A DNA stretch of 21,537 bases from a virus. This document shows positions 3,001 to 18,794 of the stretch, in pieces. The stretch spans positions 1-21,537 of IMG/VR virus record IMGVR_UViG_3300020172_003917, one strand, 5' to 3'. The position numbers and the translations under genes are program-made. The stretch's first letter is position 1, and every line of letters begins with the position of its first letter. Under the pieces are notes generated by a model that was given only the letters and a program-made list of their open reading frames with translations, did not search any database and was not told where the DNA came from.

Positions 3001-4683
3001 TTGGGTGGAAATTATATTGGTAGTGTGGATGAATTTCGTATATGGTCCGAAGTATTAGATACCGATAGATTCTATGAGCACGTTTCATTCCCTGAAATGA
3101 TAAATGGTAATAGTGTTTCGGCATCTACTGCTGATTTATATTTCCGTTTAGATTTTGAATATCCAAAGAATTTAGCTTTATCATCTTCATTAATAAATGT
3201 TGATACAAACATATATTTTAGTGGAAGTGTTACAAGAAATGATTTAGAAATAGGAAAAGTAAATATAATATCAGGTTCTACAATATTTTCCGAAACACCT
3301 TCGGCATTATTATCTGCATCTGCATATAATTTCCCAAGTAGTGGTTCGTATCCATTTAATTTTGAAGCAATTGATAGAACAATTGTAATGGAATACCCAG
3401 ATGGAGGAGCAAGTAGATTCTCAACAAATAAAATTAGATTTGAATCTCAAGAATTAATTGGAAGTTTATCTTCTAAAAGTAGAGCAACTAAAAAAGCATT
3501 TGACCAATCTCCAACCGATTCTAATAGAGTAGGATTATTTTTCTCACCTACCAAAGAATTAAATTTGGATATTGCAAAATCATTGGGTGGCTTAAATTTA
3601 GATAACTACATTGGTGACCCATCGGATAGGTATAAATCTAACTATAAACGTTTAGATGATTTAAGAAGTTACTATTTCCAACGATTCGATGGTAAAGATA
3701 TTTACGCATATATTAATTTAATCAAACTATATGAGAAATCAATGTTTGATGATATTAAAAAAATGTTGCCGGCAAGAGTTAAAGCAACCACAGGTCTTTT
3801 AATTGAACCACATATTTTAGAAAGAAATAAAGTTTCTCAAAAGAAACCAACTGGTTTATACAATTATTGGGAAAGTGAAATTGATACAAGAACTCATACT
3901 GAAGTATTTTTTGAAAATATCCAAAAAGAAGTAACATTGGATGCAAATTCTAATTACGAATTAATTGGAGAAAATAATCAATACGAAGCAAATATTGTTT
4001 CATCATCTTTGGATAAAATTGAAGCTAGCAATTATCAATACGATTCATTAATAGATACAAATACTGAAACCAATTTAATATCAGAATATTATCAAAAAGA
4101 TGTTACAATAGACGCTGGAGTAGGTGATGCAACTATTTTAAGTGAAATAGATGTATACGATATCAATACAATAGTAGGTCAAAGTGATTACGAAACAATT
4201 GGGTTTGGTATTTATGCACAAAATGGACATGCTATTAGAACTTATTTTGATAAAGATGGTAGAAGAGTTAAAGAAAGAATTAAAGCAGATTTGGTTAAAG
4301 AAAGAAAAGTAAGAGATGTTGTTAAGTTTAAAGTAAAAATTAATGGACAAGGTGACCCAAGAGGTGGAGTAGAATTAACTTCTTCTGTATATTATGAAAC
4401 TAAATTAAATATACAACCATACTCTGGCTCAAAAGTAATTAATGCTGGAACGGGTAGTATTGTAGAAGTAACTCCTTTGGGTGGATATTTACCAACACAT
4501 TATAGAAATACTTCAGATTTAACAAGAGGATTACAAAATTCTTATTATTTAGGTTCAAAAAATACTGCAGCAACTACATTAGATGGTACGGATCCGGTTG
4601 AAACATTTATCACTAATCCTAATACATTGAGAGTAAATAAAGCAGGTAGAGATGCAAGTGAACCAATTTTGGAAGTAGAATAA
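1..4683 (+). CDS. Giant tail/baseplate-type structural protein with LamG-like domain (5' end outside window)
   Basis: The frame is open from base 1, so the gene starts left of the window; a TTG at 259 is not needed as a start. The window holds 1560 codons and a TAA. The N-terminal third looks beta-rich. Residues about 700-740 (IPQYI, then FSMIGHHFDNI) and 808-840 (WRRIINNLPYLLKHKGTKRG, then CYGIP) are helical; the KGT-x-RGI...YGIP pattern resembles baseplate or tail-assembly proteins of the P2 gpI kind, but this is pattern memory, not a search. Residues about 874-1055 look like a LamG/concanavalin-type jelly roll, with the signature GSVDEFRIWSEVLDTDRF at about 1006-1023. Ser-Gly-Ser tripeptides are frequent. 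Near the C-terminus QKEVTLDA and QKDVTIDA recur 57 residues apart. It leads a run of structural genes, with a 50-bp gap before the next. A virion role is inferred from context; the jelly roll may bind carbohydrate or protein. Confidence 0.8.
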   Translation, partial: NSYNNKDVRTFNFTAGSINLNFKIQSAQYTPANPPSDEIIKLPIDSPSPIFIKKSETIPNPNSEYEIIFSSNLKNELGNSINLSYQLVSSTNDIVDTGIVDLDTGNLIRRTSKELLNTGKVNFQISGKLPNNVSIKQVYKGFASRLKNKSEIDYSVMDSVNSAFSIPASELRNGIVIVANCEKVITFAEPTIRLGETNYDVKVKDSDVEKSITIPFLTENAENVLVYISADKVLNVPAADKQITLYFQKDFREEYGSKRIIFVPTSSGFGTGGRADALLTFTAINDFPSITETTYADLIDVPSFSDFNIEYELKYSTFSASSVDIFLKLKDNTLVKIFANQPANNNLKINLKKLRDNYPAWVGSDNITLILKPYNRSGAEELIGNDYQVVTKLILPAIQLDEDIFGKALFDAFFDKLKVIEPEKESKYLTHLANFGNNEQTLISSWENDDWTLSKKSEDEFGNQIVKREDKIDSIILKLYSPLPANIQPNSTFWVTKLLTNPLIETVILTEQSDLQCPPLKGPNFDIEIDFVKGQSTNYESLDNLILSGSTSSTELVQTYLSASLIDTSNLNVDYVSGSTYLWNNFTHFSSAKERVDNFVYKVQLIETYETAILNAQTSSWINSISSLQQVEKYNIKKNEILKGFDGFENFLYTSSSYTLATSNSMTWPHNGSTRLLSTNTEVSSWYDNIIEISEEYDVNNVNWVQNNIPQYIVNNEENANLVLFFSMIGHHFDNIYFYTKAIEKSRGLGYKSKDGISDKLLFDTLKSFNWDAKNLAADSKLWEYTFGLDSDGNIKNTNPAKQRTHEVWRRIINNLPYLLKHKGTKRGIYALMACYGIPSSNLSILEFGGPEVTETTKSKLVMDNITTAINMVTGSNIQMQWKSTNKGRNPNTIEMFVKPAYSREYQLISGSSWGVYLSGSLDSSYGQVKFTYQGSNSSINTISSSLLPIFNDRFFGVSVSSGSNGLKLDIRQSDKEKTIFQESITASVSNNWNNGSTLQLGGNYIGSVDEFRIWSEVLDTDRFYEHVSFPEMINGNSVSASTADLYFRLDFEYPKNLALSSSLINVDTNIYFSGSVTRNDLEIGKVNIISGSTIFSETPSALLSASAYNFPSSGSYPFNFEAIDRTIVMEYPDGGASRFSTNKIRFESQELIGSLSSKSRATKKAFDQSPTDSNRVGLFFSPTKELNLDIAKSLGGLNLDNYIGDPSDRYKSNYKRLDDLRSYYFQRFDGKDIYAYINLIKLYEKSMFDDIKKMLPARVKATTGLLIEPHILERNKVSQKKPTGLYNYWESEIDTRTHTEVFFENIQKEVTLDANSNYELIGENNQYEANIVSSSLDKIEASNYQYDSLIDTNTETNLISEYYQKDVTIDAGVGDATILSEIDVYDINTIVGQSDYETIGFGIYAQNGHAIRTYFDKDGRRVKERIKADLVKERKVRDVVKFKVKINGQGDPRGGVELTSSVYYETKLNIQPYSGSKVINAGTGSIVEVTPLGGYLPTHYRNTSDLTRGLQNSYYLGSKNTAATTLDGTDPVETFITNPNTLRVNKAGRDASEPILEVE
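3919..4135 (+). repeat. Imperfect duplication inside the giant structural gene
   Basis: The protein strings QKEVTLDA (codons from about 3922) and QKDVTIDA (codons from about 4093) are 171 bases, or 57 codons, apart. Each is followed by an acidic, Tyr/Ile-rich stretch. The DNA copies differ at several positions, so this is an old or protein-level repeat, possibly two copies of a small beta unit. Confidence 0.4.
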
Positions 4684-4701: not shown

Positions 4702-4710
4702 ATATTTATT
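4702..4710 (+). promoter_or_regulatory. Candidate phage promoter core ATATTTATT
   Basis: The word ATATTTATT lies in the 50-bp gap, 23 nt before the ATG at 4734, and is followed by an A-rich leader. The same 9-mer, ATATTTATW, precedes the genes at 6675, 7658 and 12699, and the - strand gene starting at 12593. The preceding T makes it TATATTTA, one base from the Bacteroidota -7 box TAnnTTTG. No clear -33 TTTG is seen. The promoter call is an inference from recurrence. Confidence 0.45.
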
Positions 4711-4733: not shown

Positions 4734-5357
4734 ATGGGATATTTAAGTAATACCGAATTAACAGTAGATGCTATCTTAACAAAAAAAGGTAGAGAAAAAC
4801 TAGCAGCAGGGGGTGGTTTGAACATCACTCAATTTGCATTAGCAGATGATGAAATTGATTATACGCTTTATGAACCAGCACATCCGTTGGGTTCAGCTTA
4901 TTATGATACGGCAATTAAAAATATGCCTGTATTAGAAGCTTCTCCGGATGAAACTCAAGTAATGAAGTATAAGTTAGTAACATTGCCAAAAAATACAACT
5001 AGAATTCCTGTTGTTGAATTTGGTGTTCCTAATATTTCAGTTAATCAAAAAAGTGGTGAAGTTGCTTTATCACCAACTACATCTCCGGCAGGAAATAGAA
5101 GATTAGGATATACAATTATCCTTTCTAATAAAAATGCAGGTGATATTGTGGGTGAAGGTGTAACATCTGATGTAGGTACTGTTCCAGTATTTATTGGTGA
5201 TGATGTTTCAGCAACAGCTGCAGTAGCAAAGGGATTAACATTTAAGTTTATTCCAAACCCATCATTAACTTCGAGTATCAGAACAACAATAACTGTTTAT
5301 GGTAACGAAACGGGTGGTTCACAAACGATTCCAATAACCGTAACATATGTACAATAA
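4734..5357 (+). CDS. Conserved phage structural protein, 207 aa (function unknown)
   Basis: The ATG opens a 207-residue protein with no signal peptide or membrane segment. The N-terminal half (residues about 4-95: LSNTELTVDAILTKKGREKL, then ITQFALADDEIDYTLYEP and MPVLEASPDETQVMKYKLVT) is a sequence type I associate with uncharacterised virion proteins of environmental tailed phages, but I cannot name a family. The C-terminal half is rich in Thr, Val, Gly and Pro and looks like a beta-sandwich. The gene follows the giant structural gene and ends 7 nt before the next structural gene, so the two are probably co-transcribed from the candidate promoter at 4702. There is no Shine-Dalgarno sequence before the ATG, only an A-rich leader. 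A minor tail or baseplate component is likely by context; the exact role is unknown. Confidence 0.75.
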   Translation: MGYLSNTELTVDAILTKKGREKLAAGGGLNITQFALADDEIDYTLYEPAHPLGSAYYDTAIKNMPVLEASPDETQVMKYKLVTLPKNTTRIPVVEFGVPNISVNQKSGEVALSPTTSPAGNRRLGYTIILSNKNAGDIVGEGVTSDVGTVPVFIGDDVSATAAVAKGLTFKFIPNPSLTSSIRTTITVYGNETGGSQTIPITVTYVQ

Positions 5358-6659: not shown

Positions 6660-6668
6660 ATATTTATA
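6660..6668 (+). promoter_or_regulatory. Candidate phage promoter core ATATTTATA, very close to the start codon
   Basis: ATATTTATA lies just after the terminator and only 6 nt before the ATG at 6675. A TTTG in the terminator loop region (6637-6640) is 18 nt upstream of AATATTTA, a spacing compatible with a -33 element but possibly accidental. If this is a -7-type box, transcription would begin at or within a few bases of the start codon, giving an almost leaderless mRNA. It is the same 9-mer as at 12668 and differs from those at 4702 and 7632 only in the last base. Confidence 0.45.
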
Positions 6669-7631: not shown

Positions 7632-7640
7632 ATATTTATT
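7632..7640 (+). promoter_or_regulatory. Candidate phage promoter core ATATTTATT
   Basis: ATATTTATT begins 3 nt after the stop of the structural gene and ends 17 nt before the ATG at 7658. The context CTATATTTATTA-N-TAAA is shared with the copy at 4702. A TTG at 7609-7611 is 19 nt upstream of TATATTTA and could be a -33 element, though it may be chance. Confidence 0.45.
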
Positions 7641-8342: not shown

Positions 8343-9284
8343 GTGTTGAATAGTACTGACAAATCCAAAGTTATTACAACGCTTTCTAATGCGTTGGGTA
8401 GTTACTCCAATTTAAAGGGTAACGAGTTAGCATTTTATTGTCCATTTTGCAATCATCATAAACAAAAACTTCAAGTTAATACCGAAACTCAAAAGTGGCA
8501 TTGTTGGACTTGTAATAGTGGTGGTAAGAAATTAACTTCTCTATTAAAGAGATTGGATGTAGATAGAAACACTATCTCAATCATTAGAGAAATATATGGA
8601 GATTCTCATTATAATCCCCAAAATGAGGATGAAGGAACAAAAGTATACATTCAGTTACCAAAAGAATTTAAATCGCTTAATGGAGTTCCTAAAGGGTTTA
8701 ATCCCGAATATAAACATGCTATGTTTTATCTTTCTCAAAGAGGAATTGGTATAAAAGAAATCATTAAATATAATATTGGATATTGTACGGAAGGTTTGTA
8801 TGCAAAACGAGTTATTATACCATCGTATTTATCAGATGGGCAATTAAACTATTTCGTTTCTCGTTCATACTATCCTGATGAAAAAATGAAATATAAAAAT
8901 CCTCCAATTAGTAAAAATGTAATTTGCTTAGAATCTCAAATCAATTGGAATGAGCCAATCATATTATGTGAGGGTGTATTTGATGCAATTACAATTAGAA
9001 GAAACGCAATTCCACTTTTAGGTAAATTCCCATCCAGAACATTGGTTGAGAAAATCTTTATGAATGGAGTTACTGATATTATTATTTCATTAGATAATGA
9101 TGCGATAAATGAAGCACTAAAAGCTGCAGATTATTTTAGAAAGCAAGGTATAAATGTAAAGATGATGCATATGAAAGATAAAGATGCATCTGAAATTGGA
9201 TATGATAAGTTTTATGAAGAACTAAAGAAAACTAAAGAGTTTTCAAGCGAACAATTATTATTAAATAAGATTAATAGTTTATGA
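8343..9284 (+). CDS. DNA primase (zinc ribbon + TOPRIM), stand-alone
   Basis: The 313-residue protein would make RNA primers for lagging-strand synthesis. Residues 33-57 form a zinc ribbon: Cys33-x2-Cys36, then Cys54-x2-Cys57, in the CPFC...WHCWTC setting typical of phage primases. The TOPRIM core follows, with CEGVFDA (Glu about 210) and SLDNDA (Asp about 251 and 253), then DKDASEIG, which may give the last metal ligands. No helicase domain is attached, unlike T7 gp4; the layout is closer to T4 gp61 or a short DnaG. No in-frame ATG lies near the start: GTG at 8343 is the first usable codon after an upstream stop at 8262, with TTG at 8346 as alternative. The stop overlaps the next start as ATGA (9281-9284), implying translational coupling with the SbcCD fusion. 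Confidence 0.9.
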   Translation: MLNSTDKSKVITTLSNALGSYSNLKGNELAFYCPFCNHHKQKLQVNTETQKWHCWTCNSGGKKLTSLLKRLDVDRNTISIIREIYGDSHYNPQNEDEGTKVYIQLPKEFKSLNGVPKGFNPEYKHAMFYLSQRGIGIKEIIKYNIGYCTEGLYAKRVIIPSYLSDGQLNYFVSRSYYPDEKMKYKNPPISKNVICLESQINWNEPIILCEGVFDAITIRRNAIPLLGKFPSRTLVEKIFMNGVTDIIISLDNDAINEALKAADYFRKQGINVKMMHMKDKDASEIGYDKFYEELKKTKEFSSEQLLLNKINSL

Positions 9285-12200
9285 GTAGATTAAAAAAGAT
9301 TTACCACATTGCCGATGTACACATCCGTAATGTGAAGAGACACAATGAGTACAGACAGGTTTTTGAAAAAATGTTTGAGGAGATTCGTAAAAGAGGTACG
9401 GAAGATTCAATCATTTATTTAGCAGGGGATATTGCCCATGCTAAATTAGAATTATCTCCTGAATTAGTTAGAGAGATAAGTTGGTTATTTACCGAATGTT
9501 CTAAATTATGTGAAACAATCCTTATTACAGGTAATCACGATTGTAATATGAACAATTCGGATAGATTGGATGTTCTTACTCCAATTGTAGAGGCGTTAAA
9601 TCTACCAAACTTTACATACCTAAGAGATACTCAAGTTTATGGAATTGGTGGAGTTGATTTTGCAGTATTTAGTATTTTTGATAACAAAGATAATTGGCCT
9701 AAGGCGGAAACTTTATCTGGCAATAAAAAGATTGCTTTATTTCACGGACCGGTTGATAATTCTCAAACGGATATTGGATATGTAGTATCTTCTCGTCATT
9801 TTACAACAGATATGTTTGATGGATATGATTTAGCTTTATTAGGTGATATCCACAAAAGACAAGAGATGATTTCTCCTAAAGGTTGTAAGGTAGTTTATGC
9901 CGGTTCATTGGTTCAACAAAACTTTGGTGAAACTTTGGATAAGCACGGATTCTTAGTTTGGGATTTGGATACAATGAGTTACGAAGCAGTTGATATTCAT
10001 AATGATTATGGATATTATACGATGGATATTGATAATGGGAAAGTTCCTATTGTAAACGATATGCCAAATAAACCTCGTTTGAGAGTTCTTTTATCTAATA
10101 CCGATTCTGCCGATACTAAAAGAGTAATGGCTGAAATTAAGATGAGATATGGTGTTGAAGATTTTACAATTATCAGAACCGATTCTCTTTCTAAATCAAA
10201 AACGGGTAATAGATTAAACAAATTAGATTTTGAAGATATTTCCGATATCAATTATCAAAACTCACTTATAAATGAGTATGTTGAGAGAATGATGCCGTTT
10301 GTAGCTAAAGAAGATTTAGATAAATTAGAAGGAATCAATAGAGATATCAATAGTAGAATTGTAAATGAAGATGTTCAAAGAAACATTCAATGGAAACCAA
10401 TTCGTTTTGAGTTTTCAAATATGTTTAGTTATGGAGAAAACAATAAAATTGATTTTACCAAATTAGGTGGATTAATGGGATTGTTTGCACCAAATGCAAC
10501 GGGTAAATCTTCTTTATTTGATGCAATATCATTTTGTTTATACGATAAGAGTAGTAGAGCTTATAAAGCAGCAAATATTCTAAACAATCGTAAATCAGAA
10601 TTTGCTTGTCATCTTTACTTTCAAATTGATGGATTAGATTATCATATTGAAAGAACTGCAAAAACAATTAACAAAGGAAAGAATGTTAAAGTGGATGTGG
10701 ATTTTTATAGAATGGATGGTGATGATAAAACATCTTTAAATGGAACGGAGAGAAGAGACACAAATACTATTATTGAACAATATGTTGGTACATATGAAGA
10801 TTTTGTATTAACTGCATTATCTTTACAAGGTAATAACGCCCTATTCATTGATAAATCACAATCAGAGAGAAAAGATTTATTAGCACAATTTATGGGATTA
10901 AACGTATTTGATAAATTATATGAAACTGCTACTGAAGATATCAAAGAGGTATCAGTATTGATTAAGAATTTTAAGAAAACTGATTTTACTTCAGAACTTG
11001 CTGATAAAGCAACTGAATTAAAAGAGAAGAAAGCTGAATTAAAAGATTTAGAAAAGGAATTAGCTAGATTAAATACTGATTCAACCGACTTAGGTAATAG
11101 AATTGTTGGATTGAGTAGAGAGTTAACTCCTATCGATAGTAACCTAAATTTAGAATCTTTAACAAAGCAAGAGGGTGATTTGGGTAGAGATGTATTACAT
11201 ATTTTTGCAGAGAAAAAGTTAAAAGGAACTAAAATAGAAGAATATATTAATTTAATAGCAGAAGTTTCTCAATCAATCGAAGAAAATAAAACTATTAATG
11301 ATTTACCTATTGAAGAAGCTAAAAGAGAATGGGATTTATTAAAAGACCAAATAAACGATACACTCCATCAGATAGAATTGTTGGAAAAGGGTATCGAACA
11401 TAATAAAGAAAAACTTTCTCATTTAGAAGAGCATGAGTATGACCCTAATTGTAACTTTTGTATGAACAATGTATTCGTAAAGGATGCAATTGAAACACAA
11501 AAGAAAGTAGATGAGCAGAGTAATCAATTAGAAACTCTAAATATTTTACATAGTGCTTTAATTAACCAAGCAGGTAAGATTGCAGATGTAGAAGAACAAT
11601 GGGAAACTTTGGTTGAATTAAAATCCAAATATCAGAAAGCAATTGTTATTAAAGAAAAAGCAGAAGCTGAATCTTTAGGGTTTGATACTAAGAAGGAATT
11701 ATTAGAACATCAATTACAATCGGTAAAAGATAATATTCAAAAATATCACGATAATGAAGAAACCATTAAACGTAATGCACAAATAGATGGAGTTATTGCT
11801 GGTTTACAAAGAACCAAAGGTGAGATTGAATTGGAAATCAAAAATGTTACAAAGGATATAGCAGGTGTGAATGGCGCTATTTCTTCCATATCTTCGTTTA
11901 TAGAGGGGATAAAAGGTAAGATGAATGATGTTAAGGAATTAGAAGAAAAGAACCGCTTATACACCTATTATTTAGATGCAGTTAAGAGGGATGGTATTCC
12001 TTATGAGTTAATTTCAAAAGCATTACCGGTAATCGAAAATGAAGTAAATAATATCCTTTCACAGGTTGTAGATTTCGGAGTAGTGATGGATGTTGATGGT
12101 AAATCAATTAATGCCAAAATTGTTTATGATGACCAAGAATGGCCATTAGAAATGTGTAGTGGAATGGAGAAGTTCGTTAGTGGATTAGCAATCAGAGTTG

Positions 12201-12427
12201 CACTTATTAACGTATGTAATTTACCTCGTCCAAACTTCTTAGTAATAGATGAAGGATTTGGTACATTAGATAGTGATAACTTATCTTCTTTATTTATGAT
12301 GATGCAATATCTTAAAACCCAATTTGATTTTATATGGGTAATTTCTCACTTAGAACAAATGAGAGATATTGTTGATGGATTAATAGAAATTAAAAAAGAA
12401 AATGGATTTAGTAAGATTGACTTCTAA
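9281..12427 (+). CDS. SbcD-SbcC (Mre11-Rad50, T4 gp47-gp46 type) single-chain fusion
   Basis: This 1048-residue protein joins two subunits that are usually separate. Residues 1 to about 345 are the Mre11/SbcD phosphoesterase: Asp12-x-His14, GD at 49-50, GNHD at 84-87, FHG with His155, GDIH with His191 and YAGS. Residues from about 372 are the Rad50/SbcC ATPase: WKPIRFEFSNMFSYGENN, Walker A APNATGKS at 403-410, a Q-loop region near SLQGNN, coiled coils around a zinc hook (Cys724-x2-Cys727), signature CSGME at 959-963, Walker B with Asp990-Glu991, and H-loop His1023. All key residues are present. Such complexes process DNA ends and hairpins for recombination and replication. The frame is continuous, with no start or stop at the junction. 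It overlaps the primase stop by 4 nt and the tail of the - strand gene by 20 nt. Confidence 0.95.
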   Translation: MSRLKKIYHIADVHIRNVKRHNEYRQVFEKMFEEIRKRGTEDSIIYLAGDIAHAKLELSPELVREISWLFTECSKLCETILITGNHDCNMNNSDRLDVLTPIVEALNLPNFTYLRDTQVYGIGGVDFAVFSIFDNKDNWPKAETLSGNKKIALFHGPVDNSQTDIGYVVSSRHFTTDMFDGYDLALLGDIHKRQEMISPKGCKVVYAGSLVQQNFGETLDKHGFLVWDLDTMSYEAVDIHNDYGYYTMDIDNGKVPIVNDMPNKPRLRVLLSNTDSADTKRVMAEIKMRYGVEDFTIIRTDSLSKSKTGNRLNKLDFEDISDINYQNSLINEYVERMMPFVAKEDLDKLEGINRDINSRIVNEDVQRNIQWKPIRFEFSNMFSYGENNKIDFTKLGGLMGLFAPNATGKSSLFDAISFCLYDKSSRAYKAANILNNRKSEFACHLYFQIDGLDYHIERTAKTINKGKNVKVDVDFYRMDGDDKTSLNGTERRDTNTIIEQYVGTYEDFVLTALSLQGNNALFIDKSQSERKDLLAQFMGLNVFDKLYETATEDIKEVSVLIKNFKKTDFTSELADKATELKEKKAELKDLEKELARLNTDSTDLGNRIVGLSRELTPIDSNLNLESLTKQEGDLGRDVLHIFAEKKLKGTKIEEYINLIAEVSQSIEENKTINDLPIEEAKREWDLLKDQINDTLHQIELLEKGIEHNKEKLSHLEEHEYDPNCNFCMNNVFVKDAIETQKKVDEQSNQLETLNILHSALINQAGKIADVEEQWETLVELKSKYQKAIVIKEKAEAESLGFDTKKELLEHQLQSVKDNIQKYHDNEETIKRNAQIDGVIAGLQRTKGEIELEIKNVTKDIAGVNGAISSISSFIEGIKGKMNDVKELEEKNRLYTYYLDAVKRDGIPYELISKALPVIENEVNNILSQVVDFGVVMDVDGKSINAKIVYDDQEWPLEMCSGMEKFVSGLAIRVALINVCNLPRPNFLVIDEGFGTLDSDNLSSLFMMMQYLKTQFDFIWVISHLEQMRDIVDGLIEIKKENGFSKIDF

Positions 12428-12593
12428 CCTTGTCAGCTTTCAACACAGTCGCTTGAGGTTTGGTAACACCAACGTGTTTCTTAATTAAGTTTTCTACTAA
12501 GCTTCCCATTTTGAACCCGTGTTCTTCACAATAATTTTTGAGAAGTTCATGGGTTTCTTTTTTTATTTGTAACATTGCGTATTTCATAACCAT
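12408..12593 (-). CDS. Small ribbon-helix-helix-like protein, 61 aa
   Basis: This is the only convincing - strand gene. The 61-residue product begins MVMKYAMLQIKKETHELLKN; Met3 is an alternative start. A short strand (residues about 5-10), a helix (about 12-26) and, after HGFKMG, a second helix (about 29-41) fit the ribbon-helix-helix pattern of Arc/MetJ/CopG DNA-binding proteins, usually dimeric repressors. A basic tail follows. I recall similar small proteins in other large phages, but no named family is claimed. It is convergent with the SbcCD fusion, overlapping its last 20 nt, and diverges from the tail fibre gene across 105 bp holding an inverted repeat. A regulator of its own promoter and perhaps of the fibre gene is plausible, but unproven. 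Its A-rich leader has no Shine-Dalgarno sequence. Confidence 0.75.
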   Translation of the reverse strand: MVMKYAMLQIKKETHELLKNYCEEHGFKMGSLVENLIKKHVGVTKPQATVLKADKVRSQSY

Positions 12594-12637
12594 TTTAGTT
12601 TTCTTTAGTTTAATAAAGTATTTGTTAGTTTTCTAAA

Positions 12638-12646
12638 TATAAATAT
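12638..12646 (-). promoter_or_regulatory. Candidate promoter core ATATTTATA for the - strand gene
   Basis: Read on the - strand this is ATATTTATA, 44 nt before the ATG of the 61-residue protein (start at 12593). On the + strand the same bases include TATAAATA (12638-12645), identical to the T4 late promoter core, so a + strand late promoter for the fibre gene is an alternative reading. Confidence 0.4.
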
Positions 12647-12667
12647 GTATAGTTTATTTTTTTAGAA

Positions 12668-12676
12668 ATATTTATA
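12668..12676 (+). promoter_or_regulatory. Candidate phage promoter core ATATTTATA for the tail fibre gene
   Basis: ATATTTATA lies 22 nt before the ATG at 12699, followed by an A-rich leader. It matches the 9-mer at 6660 exactly. No TTTG is found at the -33 distance, so a phage-encoded or modified sigma would be needed if this is a promoter. On the opposite strand it reads TATAAATAT. Confidence 0.45.
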
Positions 12677-12698
12677 GAAAACAATACAAACTTTATAA

Positions 12699-15600
12699 AT
12701 GGCTTTACTTAAAAAAACTCTATTTGATGAAAAATTAGAGACATACAATGTATTAGTTGAAGATACAGCTCCTTTTAGTGATTATTTTAAAATAACAGAA
12801 CTGCCAGATACTTTTACAGGTGGTAAAAACGCATTTTTAATTCAAGGTTCTGAAGAATTAGTTGCGGATAGTGTTGTTAAGATACAAATAAAAGATTCAC
12901 AAGGAAATATAATTTATAATGAGCCCGGCGAAGGTATTCCCGAATATTACGAAGGTACTTCAAAAGTAATATCACTTTACATATACCCTGATACTTCTTT
13001 TGGCCCATGTACTATTACAATCTTAGGAGAATTAAAAGAATATTATTCAAATGGTTTAAAAGTACCTGTTCCAACAAATTGGCAAGATACATATAATGTA
13101 AGATGGCAAACGCAAGTAAACGTAAATCCATTATTACAAAATACTACAAAAATACGTTTTTATCGTAGACCTAAAGTAGATATTGTAGAAACAATTTTAC
13201 CAATCTATAATAGAACTGTAAATAGAGTTACTATAAGTGGAAGTATCGATGGTATTGCAATTAATCCAGAGGTTGGTAGTAATTTTAAAACATTTAAGGG
13301 TGATACTTTTTATGAATTAAAAATAAGTGGTAGTAATTTTAGTTCTTCAATGGAAGGAGAAACTATAACAATTACAAATTTAAACCAAGCGTATTCTACT
13401 ATAATAAAAGATGTAGTAAATTCTAAAAAAGCTATAGCAACCATTCCTTATTATGAAACATCATCTAATAGTATATTAGCTTCACAAATAGTAACGGAAT
13501 TTTCATCGGCTTCATTTACATTACCTTATAATGAAAGTATTACTTTAAGTAATTCTACAATAAGTTCTTCATTTGCTAAAATAAAGTTAACTGATTTAGA
13601 AACATTTAGTGGTGATGTAAATCGTTTAAAAATATATGCAAGTAGAAAGGCTGATATTGGTAATTACACTTTATTAGAAGATATTCAATTAGAATCTAAT
13701 GAAATATTACAAAAAGATGAATACAGTGGTAGTGTAAACATAAGAACGGGTCTTTTTAGTTCACAAAATATAATAAATGAATTTTGGGTATATAAAGATT
13801 ACGATTCATCAACAAAATATACTGCTACATTAAATAATACTGATTTAGTTTCATCTGTAAAAATAGTAGATGATGGTATTCAAAATACATCAGATTATCC
13901 ACAAAGAATATTTTATTATTCATCATCGCTTGATTTATTAAAGAATACAGAATACCAATTAGATTTTACACCAATACTATCATCATCTTTATATGGAAAT
14001 AATATAATAGAAATATATGGTAGTGGTTCTGCGTTTGTTAATTCGGATAGTAATATTGGATTGGGGAAAAACATAGGTAAATTAGTTACCAATTCTCAAT
14101 TTAGAAGATATGATAAACAACAAGTTAATTTTAAAACAGATGCCGATGGTACAGGTACTATTGTATTTGCTGTTTATCAGGGTAATTGGCAATTATCAAA
14201 TATAAGTTTAAGAGCAACTCAAGAAACAAATTTTTCACCAAATGAATTAACTTTAAATGTAGCAGTTCCTACAAAAGTAAATAATGATGCATTTGATTTT
14301 AAATTTGAATTTTATGATATAAATAATAATTATGTTCCTATCACATTAGAAAAAGAATTTACATTTTCAGGTGGTACGGATTCAGTTGTTAGAAAAAGTT
14401 TATTAGTAGTACCAAGTTCAAATTTATTTAGTTTTTCAGGTTCAGGTTCACCGGTAGGAACAACATCTATAACTCTTGATATAACAAAAGTAGGATTAAC
14501 GGGTTCGGTTACGTTTATATCAGCTGCATTTGATGCAACGGGTGGATATTTATCACCTTCTTTGTATAGTGGTGGAACGTATCCCGGCTTATTATCAAAC
14601 GTAACGGATACATCGGCAACCTTAACTGTTGGAAACTTTACAGGTTCAGTTAATGGTATAGTTGTTAGTAGAGTATTATATACTGCTTCTTGTGAAGATG
14701 TTTCTGATTTTGTAAACATTTATAGAATAGACCAAGGTTCAACGGGTAGAGATGGTAGAGAAGGAGTTGATGGACAAAATTTTATAGCAATAGCTAATAA
14801 AAATCAATTTGTTTACGATCCAGATAACCACAATGTTCCTGCACAATTAAATGATTTTATTGATATAAAATTATCTTCAAATATAGTAAGTGGTTCTTTA
14901 ACAATATCATCGGGTTCGTATTTACCAAGATTGGATAAGATAAGTACAAATCAAATTGGTTTTTATACAGAATCAATTTATAGAATTTATAGTGGAGATG
15001 ATGAGCACGATGTTGCTATGCTTGGTACGAATGTGGCGTCTTGGTCATACAATACACCAACGAATGATATACATAAAGGAACTTATATATTTACTCAAAA
15101 TGGATTTAGTGCATCTGTACAAATTGAAGGAGTTTTAAAAGGAGAGAAAAGTAAAAATTTAAATGCTACTTCAAACGCAAATCAGTTTTTTTACAAAATG
15201 ACTGATGTTAGTTTATCTCCTTCTGGTCAATCTATAACGATTGATGTTAAAAGAAATAATTTAGGAAGTACTACCAATACTATAACTGTAACAAGCGGTA
15301 GTGGAAAGCCAGCATTGACTGTTGGTTCAAATAATGGAACTACGGGTGTACAAAGTTATAGTATAAATGGAAGCGATTATCCATATACAGCAGGTGATAC
15401 TAAATATACATTTACTTCTGAAGATTTAAATTTTGATTCATATAACGATAGTATAACTATTACACCTGTAATTGCAGAATCTCAAATAGCTGTAAATCTA
15501 TCTAATGAAAATACAACATTTCCTGCATATTCCGGAGGAACTGTGTTTGGAGGATTTTTAGCAAGTAGTGGTTCTATTTCAGTAAAAGTTGGTAGTGAAG

Positions 15601-18600
15601 ATATTGTATATGCATCTACAATTGGAAATAATAAATTTAGTGCAAGTATTTCTTCTTCGTTAAATGTAACACCTGTATTAACAAATAACAATTATTCTAT
15701 TACAGCATTATCAGCTGATAGTGGTAGTATTAATTTAAAAGTAACATATAGAGATGGAAGAGGTACGGATAGTGTATTTACAAAATTAGTAACATATTCA
15801 AAAGCTAAAGCAGGTTCACCAAATGTATTGGCAGCAGTATCCCCATCGGCTCAATCCATTTCATCAAACTCAAAAACAAGTGGTTCATCCACTCCAACTG
15901 CATTAACTATTACTGCATTGGAAGCAGGTACAAGTAGATTTACATCCATTGGAACTCCTACATATACAAATGGTTTAACGGGTAGTATTTCATCAAATGT
16001 AATAACAATAACATCTACCGCATCAACTATAACAGGTTCAAATGCACAAGTAACTATTCCTGTAAATTATACGGATAGTGAGGGTGCATCTGGAACTAAA
16101 AATGTTGTAGCTACTGTTTCAAAAGCATTAGCAGCTGCACCATCGGTAGTGGTATCAATTGAAAAGGATGGACAAACTGTAACAAAGAATACTTCAAATT
16201 CATATGGAACTCCATCTTCATTTAAGTTATATGTAGCAGAAGGTGGTAGTTCTTATACATACGATGGAACTCCTGCTTATGGTAATTCCACATTTAGAAT
16301 TGTATCCGTAACCAATGGTACGACAAGTGGAACTGATGGAAATACTTTTGCATCAATTACACCAACTACCCCATCTTCTACAAGTGGATTATTGGTTAGT
16401 ATTACAGGTTCATATGTGGATTCGGAAGGAACATCTACAACATTTTATAAAACTCACAATGTAAATGTTGCATCCGATGGTACAAATGGAAATACTGGCG
16501 CAACGGGGCCTGGTATAGTTTTAAGAGGTGAATATGCGGCAGGAACAACTTATTATTATACAACTGTAGCTGGTTCATCAAGAAGAGATGCAGTTTATCA
16601 GAATTCGGGTGGTGTTACAAAATATTATGCAACTTTACAAGGAACAACAGGTAACGCCCCTACTGATGGTGCAAGTAACTCTTATTGGGAATTTTTAGGA
16701 ACACAAGATTTCTTTGTAGCTGCTAAAATTGCTATATTTGATGAATCTTATGTAAAAAATACTTTAAACGTTGGAACAAACGCATCGGGAAGTGCAGCAA
16801 ATATAACATTGGCAGGTGGTACTACAAAACCATTTGTTTCAATAGGACAAGGTAATCAAAAATATTCCTGTAATGGAATTTTTATGGGTATTAGTGGTAG
16901 TAATAATATACCGGTAGTTAGTTTTGTAAGTGGGAGTAATTATTTAAAATTTGATGCAGGAGCTGAAAGTATAGTAGATATTGGTGGTAAAATTTCAGCA
17001 ACAATATTGACAGCTCAAACGGGTTCGATTGGGGGTTTTCAAATTCAATCAAACCTATTACAAGGAGGTAGTACAACTTCAGGTATAGAATTGAATGGAA
17101 ATAACTCTACAATAATAGTTGGAAATCTAACTTCAAATGCATCAGCTAGAGTATCACCAGCAGGATTTTATGCTGGAAATACTGTATTTGGTTCAGCTCC
17201 TTTTAGTGTAGACTTGAATGGAGCTTTAAAGGCAAATAATGCAGATATTTGTGGTAAAATTACGGCAACAGGTGGTACAATTGGTGGGTGGATTATAAAT
17301 CAAAATAGTATTTCAAAGGATAGAATTACATTGAATGCAGGAGGAACTGGTGCAGAAAATTATATACAAATTACAGGAGACCCAAATGATACATATTCAG
17401 GTAACCGTGTTTTTATTCATCCAGGCCCTTTAACTTCATTATCAGGAACAGGCGGTAACGTAATTAATGCGACAATTGCATCTAATTATGTAAACGTTTC
17501 ATCGGCTGCTACAATATGTGCAGGTAATACTGGTACAACAGCTACAATGGGTGCATCCGGTATAACGATGGGTACTAGTCTTAGTTCATCTTCTACTTTT
17601 AATATTATAGCTAAACTTAGATTTAAAATAGATGTAGCATATGAATCTGTAGCTACAACTCAAGTTTTAGGATGTACAAATACTCGTTCATATACAAGTG
17701 TAAATAATGCAGGAGGCCAAATGGCTTGGTCAACATTAAATGAAACAGGATATGTAAATTTAACAACAGCAAGACCAGATTGGGGATGGATACCAATGGC
17801 TGATACCTCAGCCGTTTCCAACTTCTTAACAGCATTGTATAATGCTACCGGTAATTCTTATGGCTCAGTTCAAGCTATGGCAGAAGATCTTGGTAGTTGG
17901 TCAATGGTTACTGCACTATCATATATGAATGGTTCAATAGGAATAAATTCAACAATGACTTATAAAACAAGTTCAGGTGGTACAACAATATCTACATTTT
18001 CTCCATCTTCTCAAATTACTAGTGAAGAATTGGCTGAAGTTACATATAATGTAAATTCAACAGGAAATGGAACAACGGGCCCATCATTTGCTATAACAAA
18101 AACAAATACATTATTTAGTTCATATAGACAAGTCATATGGAAAGCAGGTTTTTTTAATTTTAACTTCACAGGGTATGGTGGAGGAGGTACACAATATACA
18201 GGATGGGCTATTTATGCAGAAGTAGATGATAATTACATTAGTACTCCAACCTCTGTTGTATATAGTGCAAAAACAACTTCGTTAACGGCAAATGCTTTAA
18301 CCAAACAAGTAGAAATATCTGAAGCCGGTTTACAAGCATTGTTTAATGCAACTCAATCATCAGCAGGTAACTATTTTAAAATATCAGATGTAGGAACACC
18401 ATCCACATCCAATTTTAATATTGAATCGGCAGGATATCTTGCTCACTATGGAGAGATGCATGTTAAAGGTGATATAGCAGGTTTTTCAACAGCTCTTTCA
18501 TCCGATAGAAGATTGAAAAAAGATATAGTAGATATCGAAGATACCGAAATAGAAGATATGGATAAATTACATCCTGTAACATATAGTTGGAAAGATGATA

Positions 18601-18794
18601 AAGATGATAATAAACATTATGGATTTATAGCACAGGATGTTCAAAAAATATATCCACATTTAACTAAAACAAAAATTATGGGAGAATATTTAACTATAAA
18701 CTACAACGAATTAATTCCCGTAATGGTTAAGCAAATTCAAAATTTGAAAAAAGAATTAGAAGATGTAAAAAAGGTTTTAGGTAATGGCAAGTAA
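12699..18794 (+). CDS. Giant tail fibre with C-terminal intramolecular chaperone (peptidase S74) domain
   Basis: This 2031-residue protein is a receptor-binding fibre or spike. The N-terminal part (to about 680) is beta-rich and may attach to the baseplate. A collagen-like Gly-X-Y stretch (Gly680-Asn694) leads into several Ig-like modules (about 690-1258). A second one (Gly1261-Gly1272) precedes a segment about 1270-1330 (GPGIVLRGEY...GTTYYYTT, then KYYATLQ) resembling small carbohydrate-binding modules. GKISAT...GSIGGFQI (about 1430) and GKITATGGTIGGWII (about 1519) are repeated shaft units. Residues 1934-2031 are the S74 chaperone: SSDRRLKKD, YGFIAQDVQKIYPHL, INYNELIPVMVKQIQNL and a terminal coiled coil. 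In this family the domain drives trimer folding, then cuts itself off before the Ser of Ser-Asp, here Ser1935. The gene has a 105-bp divergent control region upstream and overlaps the next frame by 11 nt. Confidence 0.92.
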   Translation: MALLKKTLFDEKLETYNVLVEDTAPFSDYFKITELPDTFTGGKNAFLIQGSEELVADSVVKIQIKDSQGNIIYNEPGEGIPEYYEGTSKVISLYIYPDTSFGPCTITILGELKEYYSNGLKVPVPTNWQDTYNVRWQTQVNVNPLLQNTTKIRFYRRPKVDIVETILPIYNRTVNRVTISGSIDGIAINPEVGSNFKTFKGDTFYELKISGSNFSSSMEGETITITNLNQAYSTIIKDVVNSKKAIATIPYYETSSNSILASQIVTEFSSASFTLPYNESITLSNSTISSSFAKIKLTDLETFSGDVNRLKIYASRKADIGNYTLLEDIQLESNEILQKDEYSGSVNIRTGLFSSQNIINEFWVYKDYDSSTKYTATLNNTDLVSSVKIVDDGIQNTSDYPQRIFYYSSSLDLLKNTEYQLDFTPILSSSLYGNNIIEIYGSGSAFVNSDSNIGLGKNIGKLVTNSQFRRYDKQQVNFKTDADGTGTIVFAVYQGNWQLSNISLRATQETNFSPNELTLNVAVPTKVNNDAFDFKFEFYDINNNYVPITLEKEFTFSGGTDSVVRKSLLVVPSSNLFSFSGSGSPVGTTSITLDITKVGLTGSVTFISAAFDATGGYLSPSLYSGGTYPGLLSNVTDTSATLTVGNFTGSVNGIVVSRVLYTASCEDVSDFVNIYRIDQGSTGRDGREGVDGQNFIAIANKNQFVYDPDNHNVPAQLNDFIDIKLSSNIVSGSLTISSGSYLPRLDKISTNQIGFYTESIYRIYSGDDEHDVAMLGTNVASWSYNTPTNDIHKGTYIFTQNGFSASVQIEGVLKGEKSKNLNATSNANQFFYKMTDVSLSPSGQSITIDVKRNNLGSTTNTITVTSGSGKPALTVGSNNGTTGVQSYSINGSDYPYTAGDTKYTFTSEDLNFDSYNDSITITPVIAESQIAVNLSNENTTFPAYSGGTVFGGFLASSGSISVKVGSEDIVYASTIGNNKFSASISSSLNVTPVLTNNNYSITALSADSGSINLKVTYRDGRGTDSVFTKLVTYSKAKAGSPNVLAAVSPSAQSISSNSKTSGSSTPTALTITALEAGTSRFTSIGTPTYTNGLTGSISSNVITITSTASTITGSNAQVTIPVNYTDSEGASGTKNVVATVSKALAAAPSVVVSIEKDGQTVTKNTSNSYGTPSSFKLYVAEGGSSYTYDGTPAYGNSTFRIVSVTNGTTSGTDGNTFASITPTTPSSTSGLLVSITGSYVDSEGTSTTFYKTHNVNVASDGTNGNTGATGPGIVLRGEYAAGTTYYYTTVAGSSRRDAVYQNSGGVTKYYATLQGTTGNAPTDGASNSYWEFLGTQDFFVAAKIAIFDESYVKNTLNVGTNASGSAANITLAGGTTKPFVSIGQGNQKYSCNGIFMGISGSNNIPVVSFVSGSNYLKFDAGAESIVDIGGKISATILTAQTGSIGGFQIQSNLLQGGSTTSGIELNGNNSTIIVGNLTSNASARVSPAGFYAGNTVFGSAPFSVDLNGALKANNADICGKITATGGTIGGWIINQNSISKDRITLNAGGTGAENYIQITGDPNDTYSGNRVFIHPGPLTSLSGTGGNVINATIASNYVNVSSAATICAGNTGTTATMGASGITMGTSLSSSSTFNIIAKLRFKIDVAYESVATTQVLGCTNTRSYTSVNNAGGQMAWSTLNETGYVNLTTARPDWGWIPMADTSAVSNFLTALYNATGNSYGSVQAMAEDLGSWSMVTALSYMNGSIGINSTMTYKTSSGGTTISTFSPSSQITSEELAEVTYNVNSTGNGTTGPSFAITKTNTLFSSYRQVIWKAGFFNFNFTGYGGGGTQYTGWAIYAEVDDNYISTPTSVVYSAKTTSLTANALTKQVEISEAGLQALFNATQSSAGNYFKISDVGTPSTSNFNIESAGYLAHYGEMHVKGDIAGFSTALSSDRRLKKDIVDIEDTEIEDMDKLHPVTYSWKDDKDDNKHYGFIAQDVQKIYPHLTKTKIMGEYLTINYNELIPVMVKQIQNLKKELEDVKKVLGNGK
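14774..16475 (+). repeat. Tandem Ig-like modules within the tail fibre
   Basis: FIAIANKNQFVYD (from about 14779) and NATSNANQFFYKM (from about 15164) start two related units about 128 residues apart. Later units are marked by VTYRDGRGTDSVFTKLVTYS (about 15740), VNYTDSEGASGTKNVVATVS (about 16060) and GSYVDSEGTSTTFYKTHNVN (about 16405), spaced about 107-115 residues. Similarity is at protein level only. Confidence 0.6.
16987..17310 (+). repeat. Two shaft repeats G-K-I-(S/T)-A-T...G-(S/T)-I-G-G in the tail fibre
   Basis: GKISATILTAQTGSIGGFQI and GKITATGGTIGGWII lie about 89 codons apart. Each is followed by an Ile/Asn/Ser-rich stretch (QSNLLQGG and NQNSISKD). This is typical of repeating beta-structured shaft segments in phage fibres; the exact fold is not determinable here. 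Confidence 0.5.

Follow-up and report, generated by a model that had tools for sequence, protein, structure and literature searches.

The window analysed here is a viral record of 21,537 bases from a large uncultured phage, in which a small gene and a giant fibre gene diverge from a short intergenic region. Here it is proposed that the small gene, which probably encodes a ribbon-helix-helix (RHH) protein, is repressed by its own product, whose dimers would occupy phased 10-bp direct repeats in the leader of the gene, next to one another on the same face of the helix. This candidate operator, suggested by comparison of the locus among related viral contigs, is the reading to which we give a good probability.

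Organization of the divergent region

The small gene (12411..12587, minus strand, stop codon at 12408-12410) encodes a protein of 59 amino acids (MKYAMLQIKKETHELLKNYCEEHGFKMGSLVENLIKKH...), and the giant fibre gene (12699..18794, plus strand) one of 2031 amino acids with a C-terminal Peptidase_S74 chaperone domain. From the small gene to the fibre gene, the region between them contains the decamer array, which is the candidate operator (12597..12636, minus strand, four 10-bp units), a promoter-like core ATATTTAT for the small gene (12639..12646, minus strand), an A-rich spacer of 21 bp between back-to-back cores (12647..12667), a second ATATTTAT core for the fibre gene (12668..12675, plus strand) and the fibre leader of 23 nt (12676..12698, plus strand), whose AGAAAAC start is not generally conserved. 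On its other side, the small gene is convergent with a gene for a fused SbcD/SbcC-like (gp47/gp46-like) nuclease (9281..12427, plus strand), and the 3' ends of the two genes overlap antisense in their last codons (12411-12427).

Of 127 relatives that the small protein has on viral contigs, the best 80 were taken for comparison of the upstream DNA. The locus records are not independent, a single contig sometimes carrying several identifiers, and distinct sequences are therefore quoted where possible. The window and its nearest relatives have an ATG in frame at 12593, which had given the 61-residue protein of an earlier, sequence-only reading of this DNA; however, GTTATGAAATA(C/T) is read at the position of 12593 in most relatives (among the best 80 of 127), where the start at 12587 is conserved, and the true start is therefore most likely 12587 (MKYAML..., 59 amino acids).

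The same reading had described a divergent control region with a 15-base inverted repeat, placing the same core and an AGAAAAC-like leader before each gene. The arms do exist in the window: GTTTTCTAAATATAAATAT (12628-12646) agrees with GTTTTCTATAAATAT, which is positions 12668-12682 reverse-complemented, over 8 and 7 bases with a 4-base insertion between. An equally high-scoring inverted repeat was found in 27 of 2000 dinucleotide shuffles of 12594-12698, a stretch with 86.7% A+T, so that the inverted repeat by itself is merely modestly unusual. Conservation among relatives marks the arms as real features, though not as a 15-base inverted repeat. Their inner eight bases are ATATTTAT, in the sense orientation to each gene, and it is this core alone that relatives conserve on both sides, which bears out a divergent region with a repeated core ahead of each gene. 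The AGAAAAC part, in contrast, is general on the small-gene side only, agaaaac or aggaaac starting 3 of 47 distinct fibre leaders (the window, L017 and L179 types); in the window this start of the fibre leader extends the arm and, joined to the last bases of the core, forms one 8/10 match to the decamer described below.

The distance between the cores is narrowly held, with spacers of 19, 20, 21 and 22 bp in 6, 11, 51 and 1 of the 69 loci with the pair, and in the remaining four loci (L010, L065, L068, L072) the pair precedes an inserted gene. A core pair at a spacing of 15-26 bp was found in 239 of the 251 RHH-bearing locus records that were long enough (20 too-short records left out, and one contig possibly having several identifiers), and the other 12 belong to the diverged L235-L245 and L247 group. 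By eye, the cores of L237, L242 and L243, in the diverged clade, seem to be about 9-10 bp apart, about one helical turn closer than 19-22 bp.

The core as a candidate promoter element

The ATATTTAT core was counted upstream of 206 ORF starts from the window and twelve 20-kb stretches of three mutually related relatives, the present locus included. The 100 nt before these starts contain 42 sense copies compared with 3.2 expected, of which 34 begin at -40 to -11, and 6 copies of the reverse complement. No -35-like box was found among 35 listed sites; the base after the core is A at 27 of these, leaders after the core being A-rich in general. Other plus-strand copies in the window, at 4702-4709, 6660-6667 and 7632-7639, stand shortly before ORFs at 4734, 6675 and 7658, respectively. 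The core is less frequent in more distant, annotated phages: it occurs three times before 51 annotated starts of Microcystis phage Mel-JY01 (0.64 expected) and twice before 25 hand-picked starts of Flavobacterium phage immuto (0.15 expected), both immuto copies lying in the structural region of that phage. The strand and position bias makes ATATTTAT a candidate for a promoter element used throughout the phage group, and because it lies upstream of many genes, the inverted repeat is read as two back-to-back copies of this promoter-like element.

A sigma-70-type consensus scan of 11500-13800 gave no site within 12594-12698 and nine overall, against a shuffle mean of 14.2, and no intrinsic terminators were found in 11500-13800. 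Late promoters of phage T4 consist of a single short A+T core, and the element resembles them in having a lone short A+T core with no -35 box seen. It is nevertheless very improbable that the arms are T4-type late promoters (TATAAATA): this motif is found on both strands at the locus, but before the 206 starts it occurs in the sense orientation only 8 times against 3.3 expected, whereas its reverse complement TATTTATA occurs 31 times and ATATTTAT 42 times. The identity was rejected on this strand bias, the sense core here, ATATTTAT(A), being reverse-complementary to that of T4.

A phased decamer array in the leader of the small gene

From the core to the start codon, the leader of the small gene is made of head-to-tail 10-bp units with the consensus AAAGAAAACT, the first of them 10 bp from the start of the core. 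The four units of the window, read on the minus strand, are TTAGAAAACT (12636-12627), AACAAATACT (12626-12617), TTATTAAACT (12616-12607) and AAAGAAAACT (12606-12597). Among 49 distinct leaders, 16 have three units, 21 have four and 12 have five, and every one of the 125 unit matches (at least 8/10 to AAAGAAAACT) lies at 0 mod 10 from the core. As the script for these 49 leaders required the first match to lie 8-15 nt from where the core begins, the phase test was redone without a match threshold; the last unit, placed by best match, was then at 0 mod 10 in 72 of the 73 distinct records whose RHH protein is close, the exception being L326. When the phase was left free in a set of 79 distinct leaders that took in diverged ones, 159 match pairs were obtained, of which 132 were at 0 mod 10 (shuffles gave 26.8 pairs, 2.3 of them in phase), and each of the 27 off-phase pairs involves a single A-rich match, located 13-14 bp upstream of the core.

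The fibre leaders serve as an internal control. The 47 distinct ones are 12-19 or 22-23 nt long, without 10-bp steps, a single leader of 43 nt (L008 type) being a parsing artefact in which a start codon in frame, at 15 nt, was passed over. In the corresponding core-plus-leader stretches, 39 have no decamer match, eight have one (the window included) and none has two. A repeat is co-conserved with the small gene on its own side of the region, though not on the fibre side, and the inverted repeat, which had been taken for the operator, is displaced in that role by the direct-repeat array in the RHH gene's leader as the likelier candidate.

By the script rule, 13 of 160 locus records have no array, and in 11 of them the contig ends within 44 nt of the gene. 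L050/L190, a single contig, was also scored as lacking an array by this rule; it has a weaker first unit, which is in phase. L014 and three other records with an empty leader from parsing were left out, L014 being in phase by eye. Under a laxer rule, which asks for a core and two matches of 8/10 inside 75 nt, chance yields off-phase hits on the opposite strand in 7 of 121 loci. Mapped on a nuclease tree of 69 distinct rows, with the counts of L186 and L050 set by hand, unit number needs 13 changes, a count that recombination could raise.

Mean pairwise identity was computed from 254 records less 13 with diverged proteins and 17 without a core (at most one mismatch), which leaves 224 records and 73 distinct sequences. 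It is 0.90 for unit 1 (unfiltered) and 0.76 for unit 2, compared with 0.77 for the third codon positions of the RHH gene and 0.61 for the 20 bp upstream of the core; unit 1 is thus more conserved than either of these references and unit 2 is not. The last unit, placed by best match, also gives 0.90, and pattern-filtered values for unit 1 and the last unit are 0.91 each and inflated. The units are A-rich, as leaders after the ATATTTAT core are in general, and they are phased near the helical repeat, as would suit phased A-tracts that, independently of any RHH binding, curve the DNA or stop the leader from folding to the benefit of translation. This explanation is unlikely given that the bases flanking the A-rich part of unit 1 are kept as well, G being 0.89, the final C 0.92 and the final T 0.97 identical (unfiltered), and that the paired box AGAAAACT-N(2-32)-AGAAAACT, sought with exact words that favour close relatives, is confined to this locus in five of five relatives (137-245 kb, possibly fragments; control 0), although the core is common to many genes. 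Each of these five large relatives also has one match to the RHH family per genome.

The array departs from this arrangement in some relatives. Its phase to the core is shifted by +14 in L326, +21 in L242 and, by eye, +9 in L215, and the spacing within the array still looks like 10. The diverged L235 and L247 have no decamers, and ATATAGAACTCTATAT and ATATAGAAATCTATAT were found there instead, with 7-base inverted arms and a 2-base centre (by eye). The RHH-like proteins of these two loci have the strand YTTIQI where YAMLQI is read in the others, and this palindrome replaces the decamers in their leaders; it is possible that the type of operator changed along with the DNA-reading strand.

The small protein and its relatives

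The small protein likely has an RHH fold, in agreement with the earlier suggestion of an RHH-like protein. In terms of curated RHH-type families, all 54 distinct members match the Arc-like repressor PHROGs 3180 and 582. The window protein scores 19.3 for Pfam RepB-RCR_reg, below the cut-off of 21, which the diverged L235 exceeds with 22.6, and Pfam RHH_1, RHH_4 and RHH_5 are matched by diverged homologs only, below their cut-offs. The RHH fold has a beta strand at the N-terminus and then two helices, all within about 45 residues. A first AlphaFold model, built on 54 near-identical rows, has an N-terminal helix at residues 2-22, while a second, also of the monomer but from a diverse alignment, has an extended stretch at 1-9 without a partner strand and helices at 10-23 and 27-39 (mean pLDDT 73.5). 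Most of the leading structural matches bear RHH names: VapB, CopG, Arc, ParG, omega and NikR are among those of Foldseek, with a weak best E-value of 0.25 and probabilities up to 0.97, and the best Z of VIA-align is 5.0. Sequence searches of solved structures returned no RHH protein, the best match being a SUMO chain (E 0.003; 0.054), with ribosomal proteins also present, and hhalign gave probabilities of 3.6% for Arc, 0.8% for CopG and 0.2% for the control Rop. No RHH relative was found at E 0.1 in the annotated phage collection, nor did Mel-JY01 match the RHH PHROG used. Binding of DNA as a dimer through a beta ribbon is predicted from the fold class.

Three Bacteroidota genome-bin contigs, L116 (3211-3384), L117 (464-607) and L118 (1068-1211), encode an RHH protein that is 76-82% identical, and the decamer array is absent from the 160 nt upstream of the gene in all three. 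The genome of L116 is the sole match to the RHH protein among 247 genomes of the class searched. In L116 and L117 the gene is flanked, by eye, by long ORFs of one look-alike family. These contigs may reflect exchange of the RHH gene between phage and host. The nearest annotated records of the nuclease are Microcystis phage Mel-JY01, whose host is given as Microcystis elabens, a cyanobacterium, and a 484-kb phage, and those of ORF 1 also include Flavobacterium phage immuto. We lean towards a Bacteroidota host without claiming one, Mel-JY01 speaking against it.

Two other roles of small RHH proteins were considered from the gene neighbourhood. A type II toxin-antitoxin antitoxin was rejected on the absence of a toxin gene from an operon with the RHH gene, no co-directional ORF of at least 45 amino acids being found directly beside it in the window; the co-directional neighbour seen in relatives is an occasional upstream GDSL-like gene. 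Type Ib or II partition was likewise rejected, with no ParA/ParM-type motor adjacent, the neighbours being the fibre gene and the SbcCD-like nuclease and, in some relatives, an insert that is GDSL-like, a 2OG oxygenase gene or a gene without a name.

Proposed autorepression through the array

The autoregulatory reading is built on the motif, its strand and position bias, the phasing, the private location of the array and the predicted RHH-like fold, and from these we infer a promoter role for the cores, binding, repression and a possible effect on the fibre gene. The two back-to-back ATATTTAT promoters would serve the fibre gene rightward and the small RHH repressor gene leftward, and the three to five units (four in the window) between the RHH core and the start codon would be the operator. 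One RHH dimer per decamer would insert its beta ribbon into the major groove of each successive helical turn, so that the dimers sit side by side on the same face of the DNA and bind cooperatively over the stretch where transcription begins. Bound dimers would block initiation or promoter escape at the RHH promoter, resulting in negative autoregulation, with a repression threshold set by the number of units. The fibre promoter would stay outside the array; since the cores are merely 21 bp apart, two polymerases probably cannot sit on both, and the fibre promoter could gain indirectly when the RHH promoter is shut off.

The RHH protein is a candidate binding partner of the array, which leaves room for some other phage or host factor that binds there and activates the RHH gene. 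The location between core and start codon would fit repression better than activation, and the four loci with an inserted gene keep the array ahead of both the insert and the RHH gene, all of which renders the activator a distinctly improbable explanation, more so than the A-tracts. The proposed autorepression replaces an ill-defined inverted repeat by a candidate pair of protein and operator that is open to test, with natural variants of three, four and five units and a natural deletion.

Possible control of the fibre gene

The sequence-only reading had made the region a self-contained switch for the host-recognition gene. Such a true switch, in which filling of the array silences the RHH gene and represses or frees the fibre promoter, thus timing or dosing the tail fibre, is possible but doubtful. 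The cores are held 19-22 bp apart although both leaders vary in length, the whole-gene inserts seen lie on either outer side of the pair, whose spacing is 15-26 bp in the 239 of 251 records given above, and the fibre core and leader of the window contain one decamer match. Against this, arrays are found on the RHH side only, with 39 of 47 fibre stretches lacking any decamer, and in L324/L325 the fibre core has outlived the array; as stated, the switch is therefore not borne out.

L324 and L325 are identical over 5352 bases and represent one event, in which the RHH start, the array and the RHH core were lost, and an RHH remnant adjoins the retained fibre-side core. The remnant of the RHH gene lies at 3735-3885, and the fibre-side core stands ahead of a 267-aa gene and the fibre gene. 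This deletion shows that the fibre-side core can be kept without the RHH gene; the joint deletion of neighbours is weak evidence for a functional link among them. In L229/L316 (one contig), the fibre-side core is separated from the fibre gene by a gene of 267 amino acids, and in L010, L065, L068 and L072 the array precedes the inserted gene, with the RHH gene next, the L010 insert being weakly GDSL-like. All inserts seen in relatives are outside the core-to-core stretch, on either outer side of the pair. The flanks of the pair and the RHH gene are thus an insertion spot, with inserts at 3411-4007 in L010, 3393-4007 in L065, 4190-4924 in L016, 3040-3753 in L325 and 1694-2494 in L229; in different relatives they include a 2OG-Fe(II) oxygenase, an ORF with weak GDSL likeness, one of 244 amino acids that has no hit in Pfam and a very weakly TANGO2-like ORF of 267 amino acids.

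More speculative, and somewhat less probable than the plain switch, is a self-tuning two-way arrangement, in which the RHH protein would polymerise along three, four or five decamers, close its own promoter and hand the core-to-core region to the fibre promoter, so that the balance of fibre and repressor would be retuned in evolution by whole 10-bp units. Should the repressor act on the adjacent fibre promoter as well, the locus would provide compact control over the amount of the host-recognition fibre. Apart from the array, the sense ATATTTAT core, as a candidate promoter element, would aid the annotation of transcription units in a little-studied group of large phages.

Comparison with known systems

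The components of the locus are all of known kind, and by its architecture the small gene would be classed as an RHH autorepressor with an iterated operator; the repeats of that class overlap the protein's own promoter or stand beside it, as do the three to five decamers from core to start in 49 distinct leaders, where the promoter status of the core is itself deduced. Searches of open-licence PMC brought up no title or abstract opening on the present locus, on the ATATTTAT element or on tail-fibre control by RHH proteins. Neither a phage RHH decamer array that varies by whole units nor the sense ATATTTAT element turned up in these searches.

Arc of phage P22 and CopG are small phage and plasmid RHH repressors whose operators consist of symmetric half-sites. 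Both are among the leading structural matches of the small protein; unlike theirs, the putative operator here is made of direct repeats, and there is no significant direct sequence similarity. In MetJ, RHH dimers bind tandem 8-bp met boxes, AGACGTCT, which have AG....CT ends in common with the decamer unit AGAAAACT; the spacing here is 10 bp rather than 8 bp, and the array is found at a single gene only.

ParR/parC of plasmid R1 has 11-bp iterons and an actin-like motor that serve a DNA segregation machine, in contrast to the decamers of the present locus. ParR is an RHH protein that is reported to autoregulate its operon, with ten direct repeats flanking the promoter (PMC5016525), a resemblance to the direct repeats at the own promoter of the RHH protein predicted here. 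Iterated sites are known for RHH repressors: omega of pSM19035 is a small RHH repressor acting on iterons that overlap promoters, with an affinity that depends on iteron number (PMC5016525), and its units are heptads, NATCACN (PMC4803016). The small gene would be like omega/parS of pSM19035 and ParG (type Ib partition) in pairing a small RHH repressor with iterated repeats that overlap a promoter. It differs from omega in that no motor ATPase gene was seen adjacent, its units are decamers of another sequence, and it lies at a phage tail-fibre locus.
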